Of a DNA stretch of 64,000 nt, positions 18,158 to 34,277 are shown piece by piece (the first letter of the stretch is position 1; each line of letters begins with the position of its first letter). Position numbers and translations under genes: made by a program. The notes below the pieces were generated by a model, which saw nothing but the letters and a program-made list of their open reading frames with translations, was not told where the DNA came from and did not search any database. Origin of the DNA: Bacillota bacterium (GTDB lineage: Bacteria; Bacillota; JADQBR01). The DNA lies in NCBI GenBank assembly GCA_016278515.1, contig JADQBR010000067.1, positions 1 to 64,000 on the forward strand, written 5' to 3'.

Positions 18158-18848
18158 TGAAATATAACAAGGCTTACAAATTCAGGATATACCCAAATGA
18201 AGAACAAAAGGTATTGCTTGCTAAAACCTTTGGTTATGTTCGCCTTGTCTATAATTACTACCTTGATATGAGAATCAAAACCTATGAAGATAATAAGCAG
18301 TCATTATCTTATAATGACTGCGCCAAGGACCTTGTTTCTTTCAAAAAGGAGAAGGATTTTTTGAAAGAGGTTGACAGCATAGCATTACAGTAATCATTAA
18401 GACAGATCGCCAAAAAGGAAGTAACCGCTATTATCAGCAGAAAAAGAAAATAGCCAAAATTCACGAGAAGGTAACAAATCAACGTAAAGACTTCTTACAC
18501 AAACAGTCTAGGGAGATAGCCAATCTCTATGACGTTGTTTGTGTTGAGGACTTAAATATGCAAGATATGTCACAAGCTTTGAATTTTGGTAAATCCGTTG
18601 CCGATAATGGCTGGGGAATGTTCAATGCATTCCTATCCTACAAACTAGCGGATCAAGGAAAACAATTTGTGAAAATTGACAAGTGGTACCCTAGTTCCAA
18701 AACCTGTCACATCTGCGGAGATATCTACAAGGAATTGCAACTGTCTGAAAGAACATGGACTTGTCCAAAATGTAATACTATGCATAACCGTGATGATAAT
18801 GCTAGTGTCAATATCAAAAATAAGGGGTTGGAAATGCTGTCGGCATAA
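18154..18848 (+). pseudogene. tnpB pseudogene with central deletion
   Basis: Two pieces of one TnpB. The first, 79 residues (18154-18393), starts MKYNKAYKFRIYPNEEQ, the usual N-terminus, and ends in a stop at DSIALQ. The second is in another frame from about 18399 and reads DRQKGSNRYYQQKKK, then the RuvC-II segment VVCVEDLNM, the zinc finger CHICG...CPKC, and the RuvC-III segment NRDDNASVNI. Roughly 140-150 central residues, including the RuvC-I aspartate, are missing at the junction 18390-18399. The nuclease is therefore dead. Confidence 0.88.
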
Positions 18849-19994: not shown

Positions 19995-21188
19995 TTAAAA
20001 AAGTAACAAACCTAATATAATCAATCCAATAATTGCCGGCAACAATAAGGTTCCAATACGTTTTGCAAAGTCCATTGCCGGCAACTGGAAATAGCCAGCA
20101 GTAACTGCATGAGAGTCATTTATGGGAGAAGCAGCACAAGATAATCTTACCAGAGTATACACTACCGCAAGCTGCAATACGCCTGAATAAGAAGTAGAAA
20201 ATACCGATAAAACTATTCCAATTGTTGCAATCTGAGATCCCGTTACAAATGCGACAACAGCCGGTAAAACAATAACAGTAATATTTTGAGATATCCCTGC
20301 ATTTACCATGGTTAACATTAGTTTTTCAATGACACCTATACCTGATATTATCTCTTTAAATACAAATATTCCGAATATTACTAGGGTGAGATTTAATGAT
20401 AGTTTTCTCAGAATATCCTTAATTTCTTTTAACCCCATCTTGATTACTATTAATTCATATATAAGAACTAATCCAGTGCTAATACTGATTGCAACACCAC
20501 TTAGTACTAGTCCCATAATAAAAATCAAGAAAAGACAGTCTTTTAGTAATTCTATTGACTTCTCTACCCTACTAACATCCCTATTTAACTTCTGTTTCTT
20601 CTCAAGATGAAGGGGTTTTATAATTGTTAAATAACCCAAAATCGAAAAAATAATCCCAAATGGAATAAGTGAAAATAAAAATTTTAAAGGGTTAACATCA
20701 AAAATTCCTATAGTAATGAAAAAAGCAAAAGAAAGTGGTGTAAATATCAGAACAGCAATTCTAAACCAAAATGTAATTAGAGCCATGTCTTTCTTTTTTA
20801 GCTGGTGGCCTTCTGCAACCTCGGCTACTAAAGGCGAAGCCAGAGCAATTACGCCTGGACCCGGCATAAATCCCACGAACGCAGGTATCACAGTCAGCAA
20901 TAACCAAGGATAAGGGATCAAGCCTTTTAGATTGTAAATAATTCTTTTAAAGATACCCTTCTCTTCTAGGATAATTGAAAGAAGCAGAATGAAATTTACC
21001 GCAATGATTATATTCCAAGTGTCAAAACTAAAAATAACTGCCATAAAAAAATCAGGTAGTTGCTCTACTCTACCAATTAATATTAGAAACATTATTCCTG
21101 ATATTATTAGTGTTAACCCAATATTAATCCCACGACTGACAGACATAACTATAACAATTAAAATAACTAATAGAAAAAACAACTGCAA
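19995..21188 (-). CDS. DUF401 family membrane transporter-like protein
   Basis: A 397-residue polytopic membrane protein with about 10-11 helices and the paired motifs GFMPGPGVIALASPLV and SCAASPINDSHAVTAGYF, resembling the ion-transporter superfamily fold (DUF401). The last motif is typical of family members thought to be carboxylate or amino-acid carriers. The start is TTG at 21188 with AGAAGGTG upstream. It is the most downstream gene of the island and is lower in GC than its neighbours, so it may belong to a different acquisition event. Substrate unknown. Confidence 0.8.
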   Translation of the reverse strand: MQLFFLLVILIVIVMSVSRGINIGLTLIISGIMFLILIGRVEQLPDFFMAVIFSFDTWNIIIAVNFILLLSIILEEKGIFKRIIYNLKGLIPYPWLLLTVIPAFVGFMPGPGVIALASPLVAEVAEGHQLKKKDMALITFWFRIAVLIFTPLSFAFFITIGIFDVNPLKFLFSLIPFGIIFSILGYLTIIKPLHLEKKQKLNRDVSRVEKSIELLKDCLFLIFIMGLVLSGVAISISTGLVLIYELIVIKMGLKEIKDILRKLSLNLTLVIFGIFVFKEIISGIGVIEKLMLTMVNAGISQNITVIVLPAVVAFVTGSQIATIGIVLSVFSTSYSGVLQLAVVYTLVRLSCAASPINDSHAVTAGYFQLPAMDFAKRIGTLLLPAIIGLIILGLLLF

Positions 21189-21343: not shown

Positions 21344-22060
21344 CTATTTATTCTTTGCCACAGTAATTAGTCTGGTGAAGATGTTTTTCCAGTTGGGGGC
21401 TCTTGGGGTTAGTGTTTCGGGGTGGAATTGTACGCCAAGAATGAAGCTGTGGTCGATGCTTTCGATAGCTTCGATTAGGCCGTCCGTGGACCAGGCGGAT
21501 GCTTGGAAGCCCGGGGCAGGTTTTTCCACTACCTGCTGGTGGAAGCTGTTCACCATGATTTGATCTTGGTCTAGTAATCCTGACAGCAGGGATCCTTGTT
21601 TGATTCTAATAGAATGAGTGGCTGTCCGCCTAGGGTCTGGTTGATTGTGTGTGATGTCTGTCAATCCGGTAATACTGAGGTTCAAACTACCGCCGGCTGC
21701 TGCATTAATGGTTTGGTGGCCGCGGCAAATACCCACTGTTGGCAGGTCAATTTTTAAAGCTTCGGTAACCAATAGAGTATCAAACCGATGACGTATTGGG
21801 TTCTGCTCTTTTAAGTCGGGTAGAGGGTCCACGCCTTGAAATTTAGGATGGAGACCACCGCCACCAGTCAGCAATAGCCCGTCAATGATGGACAGGTAAT
21901 AGTCTAATATTTCCTTGTCTTCCACAATAGGAAGCAGTAAAGGTATACCGCCGTTTTTTTCTATCGCTTCAACATAGGGTTTATAGAGGTGGAGTTTCTT
22001 TTTGGTTGGATCTTCGGTGTCGTTATAGAAAGCACAGTTGATGCCTATTACGGGGCGCAT
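21344..22060 (-). CDS. Class I glutamine amidotransferase-like gamma-glutamyl hydrolase (PuuD-like, peptidase C26)
   Basis: A 238-residue hydrolase with the class I amidotransferase triad: nucleophile C112 in VGICRGHQ, plus the His-Glu pair in LGVQFHPE near the C-terminus. GLLLTGGGGLHP is the oxyanion-side loop. The family cleaves gamma-glutamyl amides such as gamma-glutamyl-GABA (PuuD) or folate polyglutamates. Being alone with catabolic neighbours, it probably releases glutamate from a gamma-glutamyl conjugate. GGAGG precedes the ATG. It is separated from the upstream fusion gene by a repeat-rich 240-base spacer. Confidence 0.88.
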   Translation of the reverse strand: MRPVIGINCAFYNDTEDPTKKKLHLYKPYVEAIEKNGGIPLLLPIVEDKEILDYYLSIIDGLLLTGGGGLHPKFQGVDPLPDLKEQNPIRHRFDTLLVTEALKIDLPTVGICRGHQTINAAAGGSLNLSITGLTDITHNQPDPRRTATHSIRIKQGSLLSGLLDQDQIMVNSFHQQVVEKPAPGFQASAWSTDGLIEAIESIDHSFILGVQFHPETLTPRAPNWKNIFTRLITVAKNK

Positions 22061-22304: not shown

Positions 22305-25300
22305 TTATGCTGTTTCTTTATTATCTAGTACTTCTTCTTCTAGTTCTTCCGCTGATGTTTCGTCTAGTAGTTTTCTGAGGTGTTTTTTCATTACTCTTAA
22401 TGCTCTTTCGGGGTCTAAGCGTCCGTATAAGCCGCCTAGGATGGATACCAGATAGGAGGCGTCCATCAGCACTTGACCCTTAGGCCGTAGGAGTTGGGGT
22501 TCCTGGGGATTAAACTGGGAACCTTCTGCAATCAGCTCTAAGTCTTCAATATGCCTAGGATCATTCTCCTTACACTTATGGTAGATAGTACCGCCGATTA
22601 AGATGGTGGTTGTAGATTCGTTAAAGAAGTTAACCCCATACTGCAGGAAATAGGTTTCTGTTTCATCTACCCAGCCGACATTGTTGCCTGTAGCGACGGC
22701 CATAATTTCCCTGGCCAGCCAGGAGTAAACCGTAGTCCACTCAGGCGTAGAAGGCATGTCGTGGGGGTTTGCGTTGTTCCACTTTAAGAAGTTTTCCAGG
22801 TCAATGTCCCACTTTCCGGCTTTTTTAGAGACAAATTGGCTAAAACCGTCACTACCCGGCTTGAAGTTAGAGAAATGGATATTAAAGAAGTCATTTAATT
22901 CTCTGTTTAAAGAGCCGTCCCGGAATCTTTTTAGTTCCATCAGGTTTTCAGCATTATAGCTGAGACCATACTTGCCTTCCACCCTGCGGTATGCTTTAGG
23001 TGCGTTAGGCGTTTTTAAAATTGTCCGTTTTACCTTACGCCGGGAATCTTCCCAAGGGAAGGCGTAGAGTGGGTTCTCTTTCACATTGGCATAGAAATCG
23101 GTGGTACAGCCGCCGATATCTAGGGCGACAATATTACCCAATCCTTTTTCCTCGCCAAACCCTTTGGCCAACAGGTTGATGCCTAAAAACGCTGCCCGCG
23201 GTGTGGGAATAAATTTTGCACTCATAAATTCTTCCACCACATCAAAGCCCTTACCCCGGATAATGATAGTCTGGAATAGTTCTCTGATGGCCTCGTTGAC
23301 GGACTCTATATTAAACTGGTTCACTTCCGGCATGACGTTACTAGTGATGCGGATATCCACACTGGCATCCTTAAATATTTTTTGGATTTCTGCTTGAATA
23401 TCTTCATTACCGGCATAGATGATTGGTACGCCGTATTTTGCATAATCGGTATACTTAGCGCCATCGGCTAGTAATCTTGCGTTATGGAGCTGGGTGCCCG
23501 TATCGCCGCCTTCATTGGTACCGCCGGCCAATAGTATCAGTTCCGGCTGGTCTTCTTGATAGATGCGCCGCGCTTCTTCTTCGGTTAACTTTCCATCATA
23601 GGAGTTAAGCAGCTTAGCTCCGGCCGTTAGGGCCGCCAATTCTGATGCAAACCCACTCTCTTCTTTGGATAAGGAGACATTGACCATCTTCAGGCCGCCT
23701 TTAGCGCTGCTGCAGGGGAGCTTAATATCAAACTCATTCATTTTTTTTGCTAAAGGTTCCCAATTTCCTGCCGCTTCACAAGCTGCCAAAACGCCCAAGC
23801 CGTTAGCTAAGCCGCTTCGCAGGTCTTCAGTAGTAGTGGGTACATACTCTAAGCTGAACTCTTCAGTGGATGCATCAAATATCCCGACTTTGGTAAAGGT
23901 GCTGCCAAAGTCTACAACTAAGACTTTCTTATCTTCAAATTGGTATAGATCTAAGGCTTTCCGGAATTCGGCTACTGCTTCCTCTAAATCTTCGCCGGTT
24001 TCTTTAATATATGACTTATCATCGGCAAAGCTGATATTTTTATCAAAGTACCAGGGGGAACGCTCCCTGACTAAATCCACCCGCTCAAATTCGTCCTTAA
24101 CTTTAGAGCCTCTAAACTCATCAATGCGGCAGGTGCCGTCTATCACCTTGGTGCGGCATTTACCCACCATTTCATAGCGCTTATCTGTGACGGTCAGCTG
24201 AGGTGCCTGTAAGAGACCGGTCTGAAGTCCCAAATCAAGGGTATCAGCACTGACAATGCCGCAATTATCGCCGGGGTAGTTGGCATGGTCTACTAGGTCT
24301 AAAATCATGCTCTCAAAGTGCTTCTCTCTATCTTCCGGCTGCTCTCTTTTAGCAGCTTCTTCGGCACTAACGGCGAACTGGAAGAAATTATCTACAGTCA
24401 CTTTACCTTCATAGCCGCCGGCTAAAGCCAGGTGGAGAATATTGTACATGGCTCCTCTTTTTAGTTCTTCCTTACGGCTGACAAACTGTGGGTCCATAGC
24501 AATATTTGGCCGCGGTCCCTTGTTCCAATCGGCAAAGACCTGCTTGACGATGTCACAGCTTTCAATGATATCAGCGGCTTTCGCTTCATGATGCGCTTCG
24601 GGGAAGCTGACCACGTGAACAATTTCCGGCTCCATAAAGAGCTGCCAGTAGGTTGTGATGGCTAGGTGCCCTTTTGCCATATCCAAGTTGGGCGGGAAAC
24701 TAGATAGTCCGCCTCTGGTTTCCTTGATAATGTTATAGTCATAGTTTCTGGTCAGCGGTTCGAGTATTTCGTATGCTGCGCTCATTTTGGCCAGATCATT
24801 GATAGGCGCGATCTCCGGCGGCAAGTCAAACATCATCTGCATAACATAATTTTTGACACCAGCTTCAAGTGCAACAACTCCGCAGATAAAATGATCAGTG
24901 ACATACATATCATCAGAACAGTTTCTTAACTGCCACTGGTGAGGGTCGTTTATTTCCACCGGCTTATCTTGTTCGGCCCACCAACGGATCACTTCAAAGT
25001 GCTCGTCAAAACCGGGCTTAATGGCGATTGGGCCTCGGCCGTCCAGTTGATTATAGAAAAAGATCGGTACTGCCGGAAAAGGCATAGTTAAGGTATCCTC
25101 AAATATTTGGGCCAGTTCCAAGAGTTCATCGGTGCCGGAATAGATTCTCGTCATCGGCCAATTACCACACTTGGTGGCGTCTTTTAAGCGCACTAGTTCT
25201 TCCCTGGTGCGAATGGGTACGCCGCCTTGTCCTCGCAGGTATCTTTCCGGGTCTTCTTCACCTCTGATAAACTTAGCGAGATAAGCTTGAGTCGGCTGGT

Positions 25301-26006
25301 CAGGGCCTAACGAGACTATTTCCAAGGCACCGGATTCGCTGACTTTTTTTATATCTTCCACTGTCGGATCAATGGTTTCTGCAGCGATACCGATATGGGC
25401 ACGGAGAATTGGCCGGTCTTCTAATTCCTTTACCTGCTTAATCCGCTCCAAAAGATCGTCTGCCCACTTAATCTTTTCTAAATCCATGGGCGGCAGCCCT
25501 TTTGAAAAACGCTCCAGTTCGTCCATGGTAACGTAATCGTCTACAATCAATTCAAAGAAACCCTGATATTTTTTATTGTTTTGATAGTCTTTGGCTATTT
25601 GTTCCAAATCGTAGTTCTGGTCTTCCGGTGGAGAAAACTTATCCTCTAGCATTTCCCCGCCTGTCATGGCTCGGACCAGGTTAGCCGCCGGTCTTAAGCC
25701 CCCGAAGGTATAGCGGATACCGCTGGTCTCAGGGTCTATCTCATATTTATAGGCCAGTTCGACAAATTGAATGATTAGTTTATCCACATGCAGATCGCCT
25801 AAACGGGTGGATACAGCTACCACAGAAGGCCGGGATTCCCTGATTTTGTTGATGATATCGGGTATGGGGACCGCTGGGCCAAGTTTTACTGCTGTATAAC
25901 CGTCGCCTCTATCCTCCATCCATTCTGCAAATGTCTCTACTCCCAGGGAATGGACACAATCGCCGATGGAACCGGCTAATACTCGCTTTTTACCTATGCT
26001 GCTCAT
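22305..26006 (-). CDS. Fusion protein: B12-binding domain + mutase-like barrel + GlmL/MutL reactivase
   Basis: A single 1233-residue ORF. Residues 1-160 look like a cobalamin-binding Rossmann domain: GDCVHSLG (H19 as axial ligand; the usual Asp of DxHxxG is C17), STRL at 66-69 and TFGG at 101-104. Residues about 195-600 look like the catalytic TIM barrel of glutamate mutase E: IGIAAETIDPTVEDI, EINDPHQW, VALEAGVKNYVMQM, FPEAHHEAKAADI. Residues about 690-1220 are an ASKHA ATPase of the GlmL/MutL type: DFGSTFTKVG at 699-708, PCSSAKGGLKM at 764-774, LLAGGTNEGGD at 825-835 and ALDIGGCTTD at 961-970. Glutamate mutase has these as separate proteins (MutS/GlmS, GlmE, GlmL). The barrel assignment is by recalled similarity and is the weaker part. 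ATG with GGAGAGG. Follows the opine-dehydrogenase-like gene after 63 bases. Substrate unknown. Confidence 0.75.
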   Translation of the reverse strand: MSSIGKKRVLAGSIGDCVHSLGVETFAEWMEDRGDGYTAVKLGPAVPIPDIINKIRESRPSVVAVSTRLGDLHVDKLIIQFVELAYKYEIDPETSGIRYTFGGLRPAANLVRAMTGGEMLEDKFSPPEDQNYDLEQIAKDYQNNKKYQGFFELIVDDYVTMDELERFSKGLPPMDLEKIKWADDLLERIKQVKELEDRPILRAHIGIAAETIDPTVEDIKKVSESGALEIVSLGPDQPTQAYLAKFIRGEEDPERYLRGQGGVPIRTREELVRLKDATKCGNWPMTRIYSGTDELLELAQIFEDTLTMPFPAVPIFFYNQLDGRGPIAIKPGFDEHFEVIRWWAEQDKPVEINDPHQWQLRNCSDDMYVTDHFICGVVALEAGVKNYVMQMMFDLPPEIAPINDLAKMSAAYEILEPLTRNYDYNIIKETRGGLSSFPPNLDMAKGHLAITTYWQLFMEPEIVHVVSFPEAHHEAKAADIIESCDIVKQVFADWNKGPRPNIAMDPQFVSRKEELKRGAMYNILHLALAGGYEGKVTVDNFFQFAVSAEEAAKREQPEDREKHFESMILDLVDHANYPGDNCGIVSADTLDLGLQTGLLQAPQLTVTDKRYEMVGKCRTKVIDGTCRIDEFRGSKVKDEFERVDLVRERSPWYFDKNISFADDKSYIKETGEDLEEAVAEFRKALDLYQFEDKKVLVVDFGSTFTKVGIFDASTEEFSLEYVPTTTEDLRSGLANGLGVLAACEAAGNWEPLAKKMNEFDIKLPCSSAKGGLKMVNVSLSKEESGFASELAALTAGAKLLNSYDGKLTEEEARRIYQEDQPELILLAGGTNEGGDTGTQLHNARLLADGAKYTDYAKYGVPIIYAGNEDIQAEIQKIFKDASVDIRITSNVMPEVNQFNIESVNEAIRELFQTIIIRGKGFDVVEEFMSAKFIPTPRAAFLGINLLAKGFGEEKGLGNIVALDIGGCTTDFYANVKENPLYAFPWEDSRRKVKRTILKTPNAPKAYRRVEGKYGLSYNAENLMELKRFRDGSLNRELNDFFNIHFSNFKPGSDGFSQFVSKKAGKWDIDLENFLKWNNANPHDMPSTPEWTTVYSWLAREIMAVATGNNVGWVDETETYFLQYGVNFFNESTTTILIGGTIYHKCKENDPRHIEDLELIAEGSQFNPQEPQLLRPKGQVLMDASYLVSILGGLYGRLDPERALRVMKKHLRKLLDETSAEELEEEVLDNKETA

Positions 26007-26069: not shown

Positions 26070-27302
26070 TCATTTAGCATCAACCAAATGAACATTCCCC
26101 CTTATGTCTCCTGATACTGTAAAGTTAACCAACTGCTCAAGGGTGGTTATGCCGTAATTTTGCGGTATTCTGGTCTCACTCACATGTTGGCCGATTAATT
26201 GGCCATCTAGTAGATATTCCTTACCAATCCACCGCCCGCCGACAGTAATCACTTCATTAATGACTGGTGTCTCCACCTGGGCTAAATCTGCTATAGCCTT
26301 AGTAACAACCAAGCCGTAGGGAACATCCTCTACCAGGTAGCGATTGGCGAAATCAGGCCGATAACCGGCATCTTCTTTACGCATGGGCGCTTTGAGACCG
26401 TCGTAGTCTCGGTTGGTGACAAAGGCTCGAGTTAAAGTGCTGTCGTCCTCAATGGAGTGGGCGTATGATTCTTTCAGCCATTGTTCCACCCCTTTGACAG
26501 CATCGATAGCTAGCAGGGGATACTGATTATTAATAGCTAATGCCGTATTCCTGATTTCCATACTGATGTCCGATAGGATAGCGGCGATTTTCGGGACCAT
26601 CCCTTGGTAAAATAGCGGGATGTCTTTTTCACCATAAAGCTCTCCTTGGTAACCTTTAAACAATCCGTACATGATGCCCGGATGAACTACTTGACCTATA
26701 TTTGCCAAGGTGACTGCCAGCATATTATCTATGGGATAGACATTAACCCCTAATACTTCCTGGGCCATGGGTATTAGCTTAGGCGCCGCCGATGCGGGCA
26801 CGGCGGCCAATCCAACTGCTTCTTTTTTTCCCATTAGTTCTATTTTTTGGCCGTAGCCGCGAATACGGCAGGCCCATGGCAGAGTCTGCAAACCGCAGAC
26901 CACGGCTTTCTTGTTGTGTTTTTTTAACACATCCATGGCCATATATTCAAACCCGCTCCGGGCCGGCATAGCACCGATAATAACTCCGTTGGGTAGATGA
27001 GGCACCAATTCCTCAAGCATCGGCCGGTGTGAAAAAGCGGGAGCTACCAACATCACTAAATCGCTATCCACCGCGGCTTCCGCCGGCTTATTAGTGATAA
27101 CAGCCGGTCTGCTCTTGGTACCGCCGTATCTTCCGACGGTTTCCAAACCGCCGTTTATGCGCAGACCTTCTCGCATCTTCTGGGCTTCATCCTGCCACGG
27201 TGCGTAAATTCGCACTTCCCAGCCATTAAGACTTCCCGCCAAAGCTGCTAAAGCTTGGGCGCCGTTACCACCGCCGCAAACAGTAAGAACTTTTTTTTGC
27301 AA
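26070..27302 (-). CDS. NAD(P)-dependent opine (octopine/nopaline) dehydrogenase-family protein
   Basis: About 410 residues. The N-terminal Rossmann domain has VCGGGNGAQALA; the C-terminal helical domain has the family mark NIGQVVHPGIMYG with the catalytic His. Family members join or split an amino acid and a 2-oxo acid by N-(carboxyalkyl) reductive condensation. I place the start at TTG 27302: a GGGGAGGGA lies just upstream, and the Rossmann fold starts six residues later. A GTG at 27338 would add 12 residues without homology and abut the operator palindrome. Two 18-bp operators precede it. Followed by the B12 fusion gene, suggesting consecutive steps on the same compound. Confidence 0.85.
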   Translation of the reverse strand: MQKKVLTVCGGGNGAQALAALAGSLNGWEVRIYAPWQDEAQKMREGLRINGGLETVGRYGGTKSRPAVITNKPAEAAVDSDLVMLVAPAFSHRPMLEELVPHLPNGVIIGAMPARSGFEYMAMDVLKKHNKKAVVCGLQTLPWACRIRGYGQKIELMGKKEAVGLAAVPASAAPKLIPMAQEVLGVNVYPIDNMLAVTLANIGQVVHPGIMYGLFKGYQGELYGEKDIPLFYQGMVPKIAAILSDISMEIRNTALAINNQYPLLAIDAVKGVEQWLKESYAHSIEDDSTLTRAFVTNRDYDGLKAPMRKEDAGYRPDFANRYLVEDVPYGLVVTKAIADLAQVETPVINEVITVGGRWIGKEYLLDGQLIGQHVSETRIPQNYGITTLEQLVNFTVSGDIRGNVHLVDAK

Positions 27303-27338
27303 TACTCCCTCCCCCTTCTTTGGTATTTGCGTTGTCAC

Positions 27339-27485: not shown

Positions 27486-27583
27486 AAAGTTGGACAGTTA
27501 GTAAGTTGGTAAGTTGGACAGTTGGTCAGGGGAAGTCAAGACATTAAACCATTCCAACTTTATACTTTCCAACATTCCAACTT
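27486..27583. repeat. Second AGTTGG repeat array
   Basis: AGTTGGACAGTTAG and AAGTTGGACAGTTGGTCAGG (27511-27530) on the left; TTCCAACTT and CCAACATTCCAACTT on the right (27552-27583). Same units as the array at 22084-22234, again between two genes of the island, and it runs up to the oppF stop codon. Confidence 0.75.
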
Positions 27584-28595
27584 AATCGAGCAAATGGCAG
27601 CTGACCATGTGCCCCGGGGCTGCTTCCTTCAGTTGGGGTATTTCTTCGCTGCATATCTTCCCTTTCTTTTGGTAGCACCGAGTATGGAAACGGCAGCCGC
27701 TGGGAGGATTAATGGGACTGGGTACGGACCCTTCCAGTAAAATTCGCTCGCGCCGCTTACTTTTATCAACATAGGGTATGGCAGATAACAGTGCCTTAGT
27801 ATAAGGATGCAGCGGATGCATAAACAATTCTTCCGTAGTGGCTAATTCCACAATCTTCCCTAAATACATCACTGCCACTCGGTCGCTGACGTAGTTAATG
27901 ACACTGAGGTCATGGGCAATAAATAGATAGGTCAGCTGATATTCTTCCTGCAGTTCCTGCATCAAATTGATTATCTGCGCCTGTACGGAAACATCCAACG
28001 CCGAAACCGGTTCGTCAGCTACAATAAACTTTGGCTGCATGGCTAATGCCCGGGCAATACCGATTCGTTGTCTTTGTCCACCGCTAAACTGGTGCGGATA
28101 GCTGTCGATATGTCTCTTATTGAGGCCGACTCTATCTAGCAGATGCAATATTTCTTGCTCTCTTTTAATAAAGTCTCCTCCCTGGCTTTTTAGCGGCACG
28201 GACAGGATATTCCTGACAGTTTTTCGGGGGTTAAGGGATGCATAGGGATTTTGAAATATTATCTGGGCGTTGCTGCGAAACTGCTTCATCTGCTGCTTTG
28301 AGTAACGGGTAATATCATCTCCGCCAAAGGTTACCTTCCCCATGGTTGGTTCATGTAAACGCAACACAACCCTGCCTAAAGTAGATTTACCACAGCCGCT
28401 CTCTCCCACCAGACCTAAGGTTTCTCCGGGATATACCTCTAGACTGACATCGTCAACTGCTTTGACAATTATATCGTCAGTGCGCACCAATTTCTTTTCC
28501 AAAAAGGAACGTTTTTTTGTGAAATATTTTTTTATTCCATCAATTTTCACTAATGGTTTTACATTTTTAATTAGTTCTTTCTCTACTGCCGCCAT
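27582..28595 (-). CDS. oppF: Peptide ABC transporter ATPase OppF/DppF
   Basis: ATPase of 337 residues energising uptake of di/oligopeptides or similar solutes, paired with OppD. Walker [10 protein letters not shown], signature [14 protein letters not shown], Walker [13 protein letters not shown]. The C-terminal oligopeptide extension has [16 protein letters not shown], the Cys-containing segment of this subgroup. The start ATG at 28595 follows AAGGAGGGAGG; an upstream in-frame ATG at 28634 overlaps the oppD end and lacks a site. Last gene before the operator pair. Confidence 0.93.
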
Positions 28596-28615
28596 CCGAG
28601 ACACCTCCCTCCTTG

Positions 28616-29602
28616 TTAACCATATAGATAACACCGAACCGTATGACCCTCGCCCGCATCAAACATCGGTACTTCTTGACTAAGACACTTATCATGGGCT
28701 TTAGCACAGCGAGGGTAAAATGCACACTCTTCCTTTAATTCAGCTAAGTCAGGGACGCCGCCCGGTATGGGCTCAATTCTATCTTTCTTGCTGCTCATCT
28801 TTGGAATAGACCTAAGAAGCCCTTGGGTGTAAGGATGGTGTGGATTATCCATTACCTGTTCCGTCCTGCCCTGTTCCACAATTCTACCGGCATACATAAC
28901 GGCTATTTTATGGCAAAATTCGGCGGCCACTCCTAAATCATGGGTAACTAAGATAATGCCGGCACCGTGCTCTTGATTAATTTTTTGCATCAAGGCCAAA
29001 ATTTGTGCCTGGATTGTCACGTCTAAAGCTGTGGTGGGTTCATCAGCCAGCAGCAATTTTGGTTTGCAAGACAGTCCGATGGCTATTAACGCTCGCTGCT
29101 GCATGCCGCCGCTAAACTCATGCGGAAAGTTATGATAGCGGGTTTCCGGCGATGGGATACCCACTTCCTCCATCAGCTCTACCGCTCTGTCTTTTTCGGC
29201 ATGTTTGCGGGCACTTTTAAAAAAGCCGCCTTTAACATCCTTAAACAGTCCGTGGATACGCATGGATTCTCTAATTTGTTCTCCTATTCGAAAAACTGGG
29301 TTTAGTGTAGTCATGGGGTCTTGAAATATCATGGCGATATCCTTGCCGCGAATATCCCGCATTTCTTTTTTGCTTTTTTTCAATAAATCCTCGCCCTGAA
29401 ACATAATTTCACCCGACAGAACCTTGCCGGGATGGGGAACCAGTCCCAGGATATTCAAAAGGGTGACGCTTTTGCCGCAGCCGGATTCCCCGACGATACC
29501 CATAACCTCTCCCTCTGCTACTGATAAATCAACTTTATTGACTGCCCTGACCAATCCTCTTTCGGTTTCAAAAGCCATAGCAAGATTCTTTATCTCCAGC
29601 AT
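28616..29602 (-). CDS. oppD: Peptide ABC transporter ATPase OppD/DppD
   Basis: A 328-residue ATPase partner of OppF. Walker [10 protein letters not shown], signature [14 protein letters not shown], Walker [14 protein letters not shown]-loop VTHDLGV. Ends with the oligopeptide C-terminal domain ([14 protein letters not shown]) that carries the conserved cysteines. Start ATG with AAGGAAGTGAG upstream, 33 bases after oppC. Confidence 0.93.
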
Positions 29603-29635: not shown

Positions 29636-30589
29636 TTATTCTATCTTTAATCTCGGGTCTAAAATATCTCGTAAGCCTTCACCAAATAGATTTATACTCA
29701 ACACCAGCACTAATATTGCTGCACCGGGAAATGTTGACAGCCACCAGGCGTTTAGCATGAACTGACGTCCTTCGTTGACCATGCTGCCCCAGGCGGGATC
29801 CGGCGGTTGAATGCCTAATCCTAAGAAGCTGAGTGAAGCTTCCATAATGATAAAGAAACCCATCCGCAAGGTACCCAACACAATAATGGTATGAATAATA
29901 TTGGGCAACACCTCAGACAGTATAATCCGCAAGTTGCTTTGGCCGTTGGCCTTGGCAGCTTCTACGTATTCCTTAGTTTTTTCTGACAGCATCTCTCCCC
30001 GAACCAGCCGGAAAAACTCTACCCAGCCTTTAAAGGTGAGGGCTAAGATTAAATTTATTAAGCCAGGCCCCAGAAAGGACATCACCGCTACGGCAAAAAT
30101 CAAAAATGGAAAAGCCAGAAGCAGGTCCGCTGTGCGGGATAAGAATAGATCAAGTTTGCCTCTGAAGTATCCTGCAGCAGCTCCTAACAAGGTGCCAATT
30201 AAGACAGAAATAGTCACTGAGATAAACCCTACCCACAAGGAGATGCGCGCGCCGTAAATAATTCTCGATAATAGGTCTCTCCCCTGTTGGTCGGTACCTA
30301 AAATATATTGGGAAACTCCCCCCTCTAACCAACTAGGAGCAATGAGACGTTCACTCAACTCGCCAACAAATGGGTCGTGGGGAGCAACGGCAGGTGCAAA
30401 AAAAGCCACAACTAGGAAAAGAATAATCAGCAGTGCCCCGATTAAGGCAGAAGGATGGTGTTTTAATTTACGTATGAATCCCCGGAAATCTGCAAGAAAT
30501 ATCCTTGTTTTTATCTGCAAAAGATGTATTAGCGGATGTCCTGGAGTTATTTCCTCGGATAGTCCATCAGGTGTCTTCGTTACTGGCAT
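29636..30589 (-). CDS. oppC: Peptide ABC transporter permease OppC/DppC
   Basis: A 317-residue inner membrane permease with six helices. The N-terminal cytoplasmic arm leads to a first helix at about 50-70; the segment GTDQQGRDLLSRIIYGARISLWVGF is the OppC signature start, and EAAKANGQSNLRIILSEVLPN is the coupling EAA loop contacting the ATPases. It follows oppB by 12 bases and has a GGGGGTG ribosome site. Confidence 0.93.
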   Translation of the reverse strand: MPVTKTPDGLSEEITPGHPLIHLLQIKTRIFLADFRGFIRKLKHHPSALIGALLIILFLVVAFFAPAVAPHDPFVGELSERLIAPSWLEGGVSQYILGTDQQGRDLLSRIIYGARISLWVGFISVTISVLIGTLLGAAAGYFRGKLDLFLSRTADLLLAFPFLIFAVAVMSFLGPGLINLILALTFKGWVEFFRLVRGEMLSEKTKEYVEAAKANGQSNLRIILSEVLPNIIHTIIVLGTLRMGFFIIMEASLSFLGLGIQPPDPAWGSMVNEGRQFMLNAWWLSTFPGAAILVLVLSINLFGEGLRDILDPRLKIE

Positions 30590-30601
30590 TGATGCACCCC
30601 C

Positions 30602-31621
30602 TTATAAGGTAATTTTAGGATTAATGTAGGTATATAAAACATCTACTACTAGATTAGCAATGACATAGGTAAATGCATAAATCATAACAACGCCTTGAAT
30701 CAAGGGGAAATCACGACTAAAGATGGAGTCCACTGCCAGTCTGCCCAATCCGGGCCAAGCAAAGACGGTCTCAATAATCATATTTCCTCCCAGCAGCACC
30801 CCAATTTGGATACCTAGTACAGTAATAGTCGGTATCAAGGCATTCCTCAGGGCATGCTTGACGATAACAATAAATTCCCTCAGTCCTTTCGCCCTGGCTA
30901 AGGTAACATAGTCCTGGCGCAGTACTTCCAGCATACTTGACCTAGTTACTCTAGCCAATACTGCCAAAAGCTGCATGCCGAGGGCTATAGAAGGCAGTAT
31001 CAGATGCAGTACTGCATTTTTTAAAGCTGGCCAATCACGTGCCAATACTGTATCGATTAGATAGAGTCCGGTCACGCTGGGAAAGTTAAACCCGTAGTCT
31101 AACCGTCCGGAAATGGGTAACCACCCTAATTTCACGCCAAAGACAATAATCAAAATAATTCCAAACCAAAAGGCAGGCATCGAGATTCCCAAGAAAGAGA
31201 AAGCCATGCTTAGTCTGTCTGTGATGGAATTCTGCTTGACTGCAGAATAGACGCCAATGGGAATCGCAAAGAGGACTGCGAAGAAAGCTGCACCAAAGGC
31301 CAATTCTATGGTAGCCGGCAGAGCTCGGCCAATAATATCGGTGACCGGTTCTCGCTGGGTAAATGAGTCACCTAAGTCTCCCCGGACCACATCTTTTAGG
31401 AAAATATACAACTGAACGTGTAGAGGCTTATCTAAATCAAATTCTTCTTGTAGGGCCTGTATTTCTTGCTGTGAAACGCTTCCGGCACTGCCCATCATTA
31501 AGTCTACGGGGTCACCGGGTGTCAGGCGCACAAATAAGAATACCAATATGGCTACACCAATCATAATGGGTATTGCCGCCAACAACCTTTCAAGAATTTT
31601 AATACTTTTCAAAAAAATCAC
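30602..31621 (-). CDS. oppB: Peptide ABC transporter permease OppB/DppB
   Basis: A 339-residue permease with six helices. FLFVRLTPGDPVDLM is the typical N-terminal OppB segment and TLARAKGLREFIVIVKHALRNALIP is the EAA coupling loop. The start is GTG at 31621; an in-frame TTG at 31612 with CAGGTGAT upstream is also possible. First gene of the permease-ATPase block, 84 bases after the regulator. Confidence 0.92.
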   Translation of the reverse strand: MIFLKSIKILERLLAAIPIMIGVAILVFLFVRLTPGDPVDLMMGSAGSVSQQEIQALQEEFDLDKPLHVQLYIFLKDVVRGDLGDSFTQREPVTDIIGRALPATIELAFGAAFFAVLFAIPIGVYSAVKQNSITDRLSMAFSFLGISMPAFWFGIILIIVFGVKLGWLPISGRLDYGFNFPSVTGLYLIDTVLARDWPALKNAVLHLILPSIALGMQLLAVLARVTRSSMLEVLRQDYVTLARAKGLREFIVIVKHALRNALIPTITVLGIQIGVLLGGNMIIETVFAWPGLGRLAVDSIFSRDFPLIQGVVMIYAFTYVIANLVVDVLYTYINPKITL

Positions 31622-31704: not shown

Positions 31705-32457
31705 TTAAATGTCGTACTGTCTGTTGATACTAAACCTGTACCGGTCGCCTCGGTAATATGAGCTGCGATATTCTATCGGTTTCCCTTCCTGAGAATAAAC
31801 AACAGCAGTCAAGAGAAACAGCGGCGATCCTTGATCGATTCTTAAGAGCTCGGTTACTTCTTGGTCGGCAACTGTAGCCTCAAAGGTTTGTTGAGAAGTT
31901 TCCGGCGTATTGCCGGTATTCTGGTGATATTTGATAAACATGGAAAATAGGTCGCCTCGGCTGGCATTATTCAGTAATTCTTCCACCTGGTCCTTACCTA
32001 ATAAGGACAGCAGATAAACATCCGACAATATCATCGGCTCATCATCAGCTAATCCCAGCAGCTTTAGGTGCAGTACTTCATCACCTATGTCGATCTGCAA
32101 AATACCCGCTAATGCCACATCGGCACTGATAACGGACATTTCTAGTATCTTCATGGACGGTTTCAGTCCTCTCAGCTGCATGGTTTCTTTAAAACCGGTA
32201 ATCTTCACCAGGCTCTGATCAATTTTAGGTTGGGCGACAAAGGTTCCTTTGCCGTGAATACGATATAATAATCCTTCATTGACGGCTTCAGCAATAGTTT
32301 GCCTAACCGTGGTCCGGCTGAGGTCATACTTTGTACACAACTCTCTTTCGGATGGCAAACGATCGTGGGGTGTTAGCTTACCCTCGGTAATTTCCTTTTT
32401 TAACATTGATTTTAACTGTTGGTATAACGGTTGGGGGTTATTGACACTTAATTTCAT
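31705..32457 (-). CDS. GntR family regulator, HutC subfamily (UTRA domain)
   Basis: A 250-residue transcription factor. Residues 1-70 form the GntR winged helix (LPSERELCTKYDLSRTTVRQTI, HGKGTFVA). The rest is a UTRA ligand-binding domain (LRGLKPSMKILEM, YRSSYYRGDRYRFSI at the end). HutC-type regulators usually sense a metabolite of the controlled pathway. Sites of the CTGGTAATTACCAG type occur upstream of this gene, of the binding-protein gene and of the dehydrogenase gene, so it is the likely local controller. Inducer unknown. Confidence 0.92.
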   Translation of the reverse strand: MKLSVNNPQPLYQQLKSMLKKEITEGKLTPHDRLPSERELCTKYDLSRTTVRQTIAEAVNEGLLYRIHGKGTFVAQPKIDQSLVKITGFKETMQLRGLKPSMKILEMSVISADVALAGILQIDIGDEVLHLKLLGLADDEPMILSDVYLLSLLGKDQVEELLNNASRGDLFSMFIKYHQNTGNTPETSQQTFEATVADQEVTELLRIDQGSPLFLLTAVVYSQEGKPIEYRSSYYRGDRYRFSINRQYDI

Positions 32458-32663: not shown

Positions 32664-34277
32664 TTATTCTAATCCGACGTCATGTAGATTGATTCTACCG
32701 TCGGGGCTAGGTTCCCAATTTGTGACATTAGCACGCTGAGCATAGAGTTCTTGGGTAATATAGCCAAATACGGCCGGTGCTTCATCATAGATTATTTGCT
32801 GGATTTCCTTCCAATAGTCTGCACGCTTTTGTGAATCAGTTTCTACCATGGCCTTAGCAATCAGTTCATCTACCCGTGCATTACCGTAGAATGAAAAGTT
32901 TCCGCGGCCGCCTGACTTAAATTTTGGTTCTAAGATCCCCGTAGGGTCTAAACTGCCGTTGCCCCAGTTAGCGGCGATCATCAGCCGGCTGCCTTCGGCA
33001 ATTTTTTCTTTCAGTACGGCGTAGTCCCAGACACGAACACTGGCGTTGACATCGACATCTCGCAGCTGGTTTGCTACTGCTTCTGCTACATCTTTTTCGT
33101 CTGCCTTGGCATCAATGACCACATCAAAACCGTCCGGATAGCCGGCTTCTGTGAGCAGTTCTTTCGCCTTTTCAGGGTTATAGTCATAGCCTGGAATTTG
33201 GTCATTATATGCGAAACCCTTAGGCATATATGGACCTTTTAAAGCTTCTCCGTTACCGTTTAAGATATACTTTACTATTTCTTCGTAGTTAACAGCGTAA
33301 TTCATGGCCTGACGCACTTTCACATTATCGAATGGCGGTTTATTTACATTCAGCTCGATAAATCTCTCTCTGGTGCTGTCTGCACCTTTCACCTCTATAT
33401 TTGAATCTGCTTCTAACTGTTCAATCATATCAGGTGGGATTTCTTGAACAATCTGTACTTGGCCTGCCTGAAGAGCAGCTATCCGTGATGCTGTTTCGGG
33501 CATAATTTTAAATATTACTACATCCACCTGCGCATTGCCTACGGGTGATATGTCAGGAGAACCACCCCAGTAATTTTCGTATCGTTCCATGATAACTTGT
33601 TCATTAAGCTTACTGTCTTTTTTAATAAACTTGAAAGGTCCAGCTCCAACAGGGTTTTTAGCAAAATACTCTGAACCATTTTCCTCGATATAATCCTTAG
33701 GAACTACTTCCTGGAAGGGAAGCATAGCCAAGAATACAGGAGACGGCTCTGTCAGGGTAAATTTGGCCGTATACTCATCCGTTGCTTCTACCTTTTCTAC
33801 AGGGCCAAGCAATCCATTACGGGGTGATGACTCGCCATCTACGGCTCCTTCAGTGACTAAGCGGTTAAAGGTGAAGGCCACGTCATCGGCAGTCAGGGCC
33901 TCACCATTGTGGAAGGTAATACCTTGTCTAATCTTAAAAACCCACTCGGTGGGAGAAGTCTGTTCCCATGATTCTGCTATCTCGGGCACAATCTCCATAT
34001 CGGTAGTACGTGTTACCAATCCGTCAAACATGTTTCTGATAACAGTTTCTGTCACCCGGTCACGGTGCATAGCCGGGTCTAAAGTAAGTACCTCAGTAGG
34101 AATAGCAACGGTCAGAACTTCTTTCTTAGCCACCGGCTTTTCAGCCTGTTCTTTTTCTTCTTGTTCCTGGCTTGTCTGATTAGTTCCTTCTTGGTCGTTA
34201 TTACCCGAGGAACAACCGGCAAACACAAATAAAATTGTCAGAAGCATAACCAAGCTCAATAAAATCTTATTTTTCAT
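32664..34277 (-). CDS. Extracytoplasmic peptide/opine-binding lipoprotein (SBP family 5)
   Basis: A 537-residue ABC solute-binding protein. Signal peptide with lipobox FAGC (Cys21), then a low-complexity Gln/Glu/Lys linker to about residue 52. The mature domain has the family-5 pattern: LTVAIPTEVLTLDPAMHRD, ITFHNGEALTADDVAFTFNRL, PVGAGPFKF, VRQAMNYAVN and GYDYNPEKAKELL. It is expected to capture the substrate at the outer face for OppBCDF. Transcribed first in the island, with an operator-like site 82 bases upstream. Confidence 0.92.
   Translation of the reverse strand: MKNKILLSLVMLLTILFVFAGCSSGNNDQEGTNQTSQEQEEKEQAEKPVAKKEVLTVAIPTEVLTLDPAMHRDRVTETVIRNMFDGLVTRTTDMEIVPEIAESWEQTSPTEWVFKIRQGITFHNGEALTADDVAFTFNRLVTEGAVDGESSPRNGLLGPVEKVEATDEYTAKFTLTEPSPVFLAMLPFQEVVPKDYIEENGSEYFAKNPVGAGPFKFIKKDSKLNEQVIMERYENYWGGSPDISPVGNAQVDVVIFKIMPETASRIAALQAGQVQIVQEIPPDMIEQLEADSNIEVKGADSTRERFIELNVNKPPFDNVKVRQAMNYAVNYEEIVKYILNGNGEALKGPYMPKGFAYNDQIPGYDYNPEKAKELLTEAGYPDGFDVVIDAKADEKDVAEAVANQLRDVDVNASVRVWDYAVLKEKIAEGSRLMIAANWGNGSLDPTGILEPKFKSGGRGNFSFYGNARVDELIAKAMVETDSQKRADYWKEIQQIIYDEAPAVFGYITQELYAQRANVTNWEPSPDGRINLHDVGLE

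Follow-up and report, generated by a model that had tools for sequence, protein, structure and literature searches.

In the 64,000-nucleotide window analysed here, which covers positions 1 to 64,000 of contig JADQBR010000067.1 from a Bacillota bacterium (assembly GCA_016278515.1), a single open reading frame (ORF) of 1233 residues, at 22305-26006 on the minus strand, encodes a cobalamin (B12)-binding domain, a TIM barrel and a MutL-type ATPase in one chain (Table 1). The gene lies in a 13-kb cluster on one strand, which also comprises a solute-binding protein, a GntR regulator, two permeases, two ATPases, an opine dehydrogenase and a C26 hydrolase. The first-pass annotation, made from the letters of the window, had given the correct coordinates and length of the ORF and no strand; coding on the plus strand is ruled out by 56 stops in the plus frame. 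All the motifs quoted there are found in the translation, namely GDCVHSLG at residues 15-22 (with Cys17 and His19), STRL at 66-69, TFGG at 100-103, DFGSTFTKVG at 699-708, LLAGGTNEGGD at about 825-835 and ALDIGGCTTD at 961-970, and its proposal that three functions are joined in this ORF is borne out for all three domains by profile and for two of them also by fold.

Table 1. Position, strand and supporting evidence of the fused gene, its domains and the surrounding cluster
Feature	Position	Strand	Basis
Fused B12 mutase-MutL ORF, 1233 aa	22305..26006	(-)	translation, Pfam, homologous loci
B12-binding Rossmann domain, GlmS-like, residues ~5-120	25647..25994	(-)	PF02310, hhalign to GlmS, Foldseek to 1cb7_A
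Variant DxHxxG motif C17-V-H19-S-L-G22; His19 = predicted lower cobalt ligand	25941..25958	(-)	conservation
GlmE-like TIM barrel with C-terminal extension, residues ~198-640	24087..25415	(-)	hhalign to GlmE, Foldseek 6h9e_B/1cb7_B, PF06368 in unfused relatives
MutL/GlmL-type ASKHA ATPase, residues 695-1210, predicted reactivase	22377..23924	(-)	PF13941, motifs
Opine dehydrogenase (octopine dehydrogenase family), 63 nucleotides upstream of the fused gene	26070..27338	(-)	PF02317 3e-32, 112 bits vs cut-off 30; 3c7a E 2e-74
Peptidase C26 / gamma-glutamyl-hydrolase family gene, downstream	21344..22060	(-)	PF07722 4.7e-61; family also found close to the fused gene of L002, L003
Two OppD/OppF-type ABC transporter ATPase genes	27582..29602	(-)	Walker A GESGCGKS, C-terminal CRFHTRC / CAFYPRC
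Two oligopeptide-type permease genes	29636..31621	(-)	BPD_transp_1
GntR/UTRA regulator	31705..32457	(-)	PF00392, PF07702
Solute-binding protein family 5 (dipeptide/opine type)	32664..34277	(-)	PF00496 2.7e-92; kin to DppA, YliB, opine binders AccA, AgaA

The fused gene and its unfused relatives

A continuous fused ORF was found at 14 other loci (60-77% identity), 13 of them complete and one ended by a contig edge. Of these, 13 came from the scan of GTDB genomes, with 61-74% identity over their best segment; 12 are complete and one, L013, is cut by the contig end. A further complete copy (L064) came from 301 drawn Chloroflexota genomes, two of which carry the fused form. Since the complete fused ORF recurs in 12 loci of the scan and in L064, it is not an assembly join; the fusion is real and conserved. 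The metagenome-assembled genomes holding fused copies are labelled Bacillota, Chloroflexota, SAR324 and, in one case, Desulfovibrio. The gene is rare and patchy: it is present in one of 52 genomes in the phylum of the SAR324 genome, in one of 101 relatives within the phylum of the source genome, and, in the three-genome class to which the source belongs, in the source genome only. A plasmid search found no fused copy.

A B12 domain and barrel lacking MutL are encoded by about 30 Bacillota-type and Chloroflexota genomes (loci L015-L031 and L065-L078), and this unfused family, 35-44% identical to the fused protein, is common in both groups. Its members share with the fused proteins the two mutase domains, the invariant residues described below and the dehydrogenase neighbour, and differ from them in their length of 540-640 residues (typically about 550), in having no MutL domain and in lacking an insert at residues ~535-585. 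This insert (24252-24404), which is found in the fused proteins, might contact MutL. In L018 (genome G078) the unfused mutase gene is broken by one TAA stop, possibly as a pseudogene or through a sequencing error. A scan of viral contigs with an unfused relative as the query found nothing.

Domains and conserved residues of the mutase and ATPase halves

On the source protein PF02310 gives a weak match below the Pfam cut-off (9e-6, residues 8-70), and in two unfused relatives it reaches 8e-11 and 3e-11. A profile built from fused and unfused sequences aligns with GlmS over 95 columns (residues 5-107, P 1.6e-7) and with GlmE over 391 columns (P 6.7e-8), both hhalign comparisons being one-against-one and made without secondary structure, and the barrel region, residues ~160-640, is homologous to glutamate mutase E. 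The Pfam family of this subunit, PF06368, is matched in unfused relatives with values up to 1.1e-7, some just over and some just under the cut-off. A PDB search with the single sequence matched the B12 domain alone, weakly. In a Foldseek search with an AlphaFold model of residues 1-690, built from 14 sequences (pLDDT 70, pTM 0.66), the best match was chain E of glutamate mutase (6h9e_B, E 2.2e-9; 1cb7_B), followed by ornithine and lysine aminomutases, and GlmS (1cb7_A) was matched with a TM score of 0.66 on the target. Both the B12 Rossmann fold and the mutase-type TIM barrel that the first-pass annotation had expected are thus matched in the modelled region.

The canonical DxHxxG motif of glutamate mutase reads CxHxxG in every fused protein. 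Position 17 is a cysteine in 14 of 14 fused and 24 of 26 unfused sequences, the remaining two having aspartate, and His19 and Gly22 are invariant across fused and unfused proteins; the cysteine is therefore a family trait and not a sign of decay. The replacement of the first aspartate had been read earlier as a hint that corrinoid binding may differ, and, although the substitution itself is real, it offers no argument against such binding, as it is family-wide and the cobalt-ligand histidine and the glycine never vary. In the source genome, three CobA-type adenosyltransferases occur together with many B12-domain proteins, and no PduO-type adenosyltransferase was found. An Rfam scan of 15000-40000 gave no match, and hence no cobalamin riboswitch.

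In the alignment with GlmE, R149 and E330 correspond to R287 and E470, and K326 to V466, none of which varies among 40 sequences, fused and unfused. Three GlmE arginines, R66, R100 and R149, form the arginine claw of the glutamate site (structure 1I9C), and of their equivalents R287 is the one retained. Further polar or aromatic residues invariant in the 40 sequences include D236, Q237, D322, R324, E351, N353, H356, W358, R361 and R431, and at about 90 positions of the mutase half conservation reaches at least 95% across fused and unfused proteins. Because so many invariant polar residues are common to both, fused and unfused proteins probably share their chemistry, on a substrate other than glutamate, and the altered active site indicates that the protein is probably not a glutamate mutase. 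As for the retained glutamate, Glu330 of GlmE touches the adenosyl ribose (PMC3958899).

The C-terminal half matches the whole of PF13941 MutL (profile 1-450 of 450, residues 695-1210) at 7.5e-82 and 275.9 bits, over the cut-off. Among NCBIfam models it is closest to GlmL, scoring 278.5 bits with NF040745, below the equivalog cut-off of 475, and in the TIGR01319 family it scores 196 bits, below the cut-off of 204. The motifs DFGSTFTK, CSSAKGGLK, LLAGG and DIGGCTTD, which include the ASKHA phosphate motifs, are intact and in register with GlmL, a chaperone that reactivates glutamate mutase and belongs with MutL to a mutase-reactivation family (PMC4682846). This domain is the sole MutL over the cut-off in the source genome, and the query likewise matches nothing but the fused gene in six other genomes with the fusion. 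When 55 MutL sequences are placed in a maximum-likelihood tree, the 14 fused domains fall into a single clade (100/100) on a long branch, apart from GlmL and from the OraE-linked MutLs; the simplest reading of this topology is a single fusion event with subsequent horizontal spread. An origin of the fused domain from the MutL that adjoins an unfused mutase in L039 finds no support in the tree. The genes of a separate MutL clade (L118, L129, L130) have aconitase-like and PrpF-like neighbours, and the 8 kb examined there show no B12 mutase.

The opine dehydrogenase and the gene cluster

The adjoining dehydrogenase matches structure 3c7a, the scallop octopine dehydrogenase, and the partner in the unfused loci has the Arthrobacter N-(1-D-carboxylethyl)-L-norvaline dehydrogenase as its relative (1bg6, E 8.6e-87). 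Of the 32 unfused loci, 31 have an opine dehydrogenase directly adjoining the mutase, as do all 13 fused loci with flanking sequence. This gives 44 of 45, although the loci are related and do not amount to 45 independent events. In the exception, an unfused locus (L016/L039), the opine dehydrogenase belongs to the same cluster but lies three genes upstream. The Bacillota-type and the Chloroflexota unfused loci differ in gene order, and two dehydrogenase subfamilies partner the mutase, even within the fused copies (L010 and L013 as opposed to the rest). Since the association holds in both gene orders and with both subfamilies, mutase and dehydrogenase are likely to work as a functional pair.

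Genes for family 5 solute-binding proteins stand beside most fused genes, although the similarity of the one encoded here points to no single ligand. C26 or gamma-glutamyltransferase genes occur in fused loci too, and an ornithine-racemase-like gene is found in three of those from Chloroflexota (L005, L006 and L013). Taken together, these neighbours point to uptake and breakdown, and suggest that in the fused loci the substrate is imported and degraded. One unfused pair (L045, 7282-11248) lies amid ATP-grasp-like, aminotransferase-like and sugar-nucleotide genes, and there the sugar-nucleotide and ATP-grasp-like context suggests a biosynthetic use.

Several further genes were observed around these loci. 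A DUF401 family membrane transporter (19995-21188, minus strand) follows immediately downstream of the cluster, on its strand, and may or may not be part of it; a short ORF at 18558-18848 on the plus strand resembles the zinc-ribbon end of the transposon protein TnpB/OrfB and is probably a fragment. Near one fused copy there is a gene of the MttB (trimethylamine methyltransferase) family (L010:20821-22251, plus strand). A canonical GlmE gene of the source genome follows the glutamate racemase gene murI on contig 114 (L038:4666-6922), with neither GlmL nor GlmS alongside, and the MurI-GlmE pair recurs, again with no GlmL, in several relatives (L102-L105 and L108).

Proposed function and comparison with known systems

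Based on the domains, the conserved residues and the gene linkage, we consider the protein a probable radical mutase of the glutamate mutase type, dependent on adenosylcobalamin and acting in one chain with its reactivase in cis and as the partner of an opine dehydrogenase, on a substrate other than glutamate. The first-pass annotation had reached the same enzyme class, and this part of its reading stands, but it had missed both the adjoining opine dehydrogenase and the changes in the substrate site relative to glutamate mutase. His19 of the N-terminal Rossmann domain would bind adenosylcobalamin in the base-off state, and binding of the substrate in the TIM barrel would cause the Co-C bond to break homolytically. 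Glu470 would hold the adenosyl radical while it abstracts a hydrogen, a carbon fragment would then undergo a 1,2-shift, and inactivated cobalamin would be exchanged in cis by the C-terminal MutL ATPase. The substrate may be an amino acid or an opine-type secondary amine handled by the neighbouring dehydrogenase, and in this cluster the peptide/opine-type ABC transporter probably imports the material, which would then be degraded.

A number of observations weigh against this proposal. The barrel of the source protein itself matches no Pfam family, PF06368 included, and its homology with GlmE is drawn from a profile-profile comparison, from unfused relatives close to the cut-off and from a model of moderate quality. 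Part of the active site lies in segments that were modelled with low confidence, among them residues 230-264 and 280-327, and fine geometry was therefore not read from the model. Two arginines of the claw are replaced, R66 by H204 and R100 by Q240, and the replacements are themselves invariant in the 40 sequences. For the ATPase half the AlphaFold model is poor (pLDDT 55, pTM 0.39) and unusable for a fold search. A clear MutL is present in few of the Chloroflexota genomes that encode the unfused mutase and lacking in most, so that not every member of the family needs reactivation by MutL. Finally, the neighbouring dehydrogenase is termed "opine" solely through its family membership.

Other explanations were weighed against the same evidence. 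The nearest fold and profile are those of GlmE and GlmS and the reactivase is of the GlmL type, as expected of a true glutamate mutase, converting glutamate to 3-methylaspartate, fused to its own GlmL; nevertheless, the retention of a single claw arginine throughout the 40 sequences makes this improbable, the source genome possesses a separate canonical GlmE (605 bits), and no methylaspartate ammonia-lyase was noticed among neighbours that nearly always include an opine dehydrogenase. That GlmE lacks an adjoining GlmL, and with the fused domain as the only MutL over the cut-off in the genome, the protein might be mainly a reactivase for it, with a degenerate mutase half. We find this very hard to accept, given that no match to the fused protein exists in G001 and G002, which belong to the same family and carry GlmE only, that the mutase half is conserved at about 90 positions, and that the gene tracks the opine dehydrogenase and not GlmE.

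A corrinoid protein for methyl transfer or sensing, with a methyl corrinoid on the B12 domain and the site of the methyl donor or acceptor in the barrel, could be imagined from the single-sequence B12 matches, which include methyltransferase corrinoid proteins, and from the MttB gene near L010. It is unlikely, because the barrel resembles GlmE and then aminomutases in fold, and GlmE in profile, but not methyltransferases; because MutL is a mutase-reactivation family (PMC4682846); because the adenosyl-contacting glutamate is invariant; and because MttB was noted at a single locus. An aminomutase assisted by pyridoxal phosphate (PLP), like ornithine 4,5- or lysine 5,6-aminomutase, would fit the next best fold matches and the ornithine-racemase-like gene near L005, L006 and L013. 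In ornithine 4,5-aminomutase PLP is linked to Lys629, close behind the B12 histidine (PMC3958899), but the source protein has no lysine at residues 8-40, the unfused protein of L015 has none just behind its B12 histidine, and the OraE model matches the B12 part only, which leaves this alternative with very little likelihood.

Returning to the radical mutase paired with an opine dehydrogenase, a broader reading may be put forward, which we hold tentatively and with somewhat more doubt than confidence. The two enzymes could form a module for the B12 radical rearrangement of an opine or of its amino-acid half, spread through Bacillota and Chloroflexota, and the fused lineage could have captured an ASKHA reactivase to become a catabolic, self-repairing enzyme; it would then be the first B12 mutase directed at opines, and the IcmF idea would have arisen a second time, independently. 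In the open-access literature, most subscription journals lying outside this coverage, neither an opine-dehydrogenase-linked mutase nor a mutase-MutL fusion was found described. With its near-invariant link to the dehydrogenase, this widespread family of B12 mutases can be given a testable class of substrates, and the same link suggests that the metabolism of amino acids or opines includes a new reaction.

Among known systems, glutamate mutase GlmS/GlmE (1CCW/1CB7, 6H9E) shares with the fused protein the B12 Rossmann domain and TIM barrel, the histidine lower-ligand motif and the equivalents of R149 and E330, but is built of two chains, has D14, R66 and R100 where Cys, His and Gln are found here, and sits in the methylaspartate pathway instead of beside an opine dehydrogenase. 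Ornithine 4,5-aminomutase (OraE/OraS) and lysine 5,6-aminomutase likewise combine a TIM barrel with a B12 domain, and OraE-linked MutL homologues exist; in contrast, the fused protein has no PLP lysine and its B12 domain precedes the barrel. Its ATPase half is a full-length MutL/GlmL domain (PF13941) with the DFGST, LLAGG and DIGG(C/A)TTD motifs, unlike other members in being fused to a mutase, in forming its own long-branch clade and in falling below the GlmL and OraL equivalog cut-offs. The isobutyryl-CoA mutase IcmF also joins a B12 mutase and a maintenance nucleoside triphosphatase (NTPase) in one chain, and is the notable exception in which the G-protein chaperone is a domain of its mutase (PMC10481361). 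The contrast drawn in the first-pass annotation, a MeaB-type GTPase there and a GlmL-type ATPase here, is correct (PMC10481361): IcmF combines its MeaB-type G-protein domain with an acyl-CoA substrate, whereas a C-terminal ASKHA ATPase accompanies a GlmE-type barrel in the fused protein, and a Pfam scan of the ORF matched no P-loop family, an IcmF-like MeaB-type GTPase included. IcmF is thus the nearest precedent by design and no relative in the NTPase domain. If active, a carbon-skeleton mutase with a GlmL-type ATPase in cis would offer a natural single-chain system for studying how MutL exchanges damaged B12, the role that IcmF has served for MeaB.

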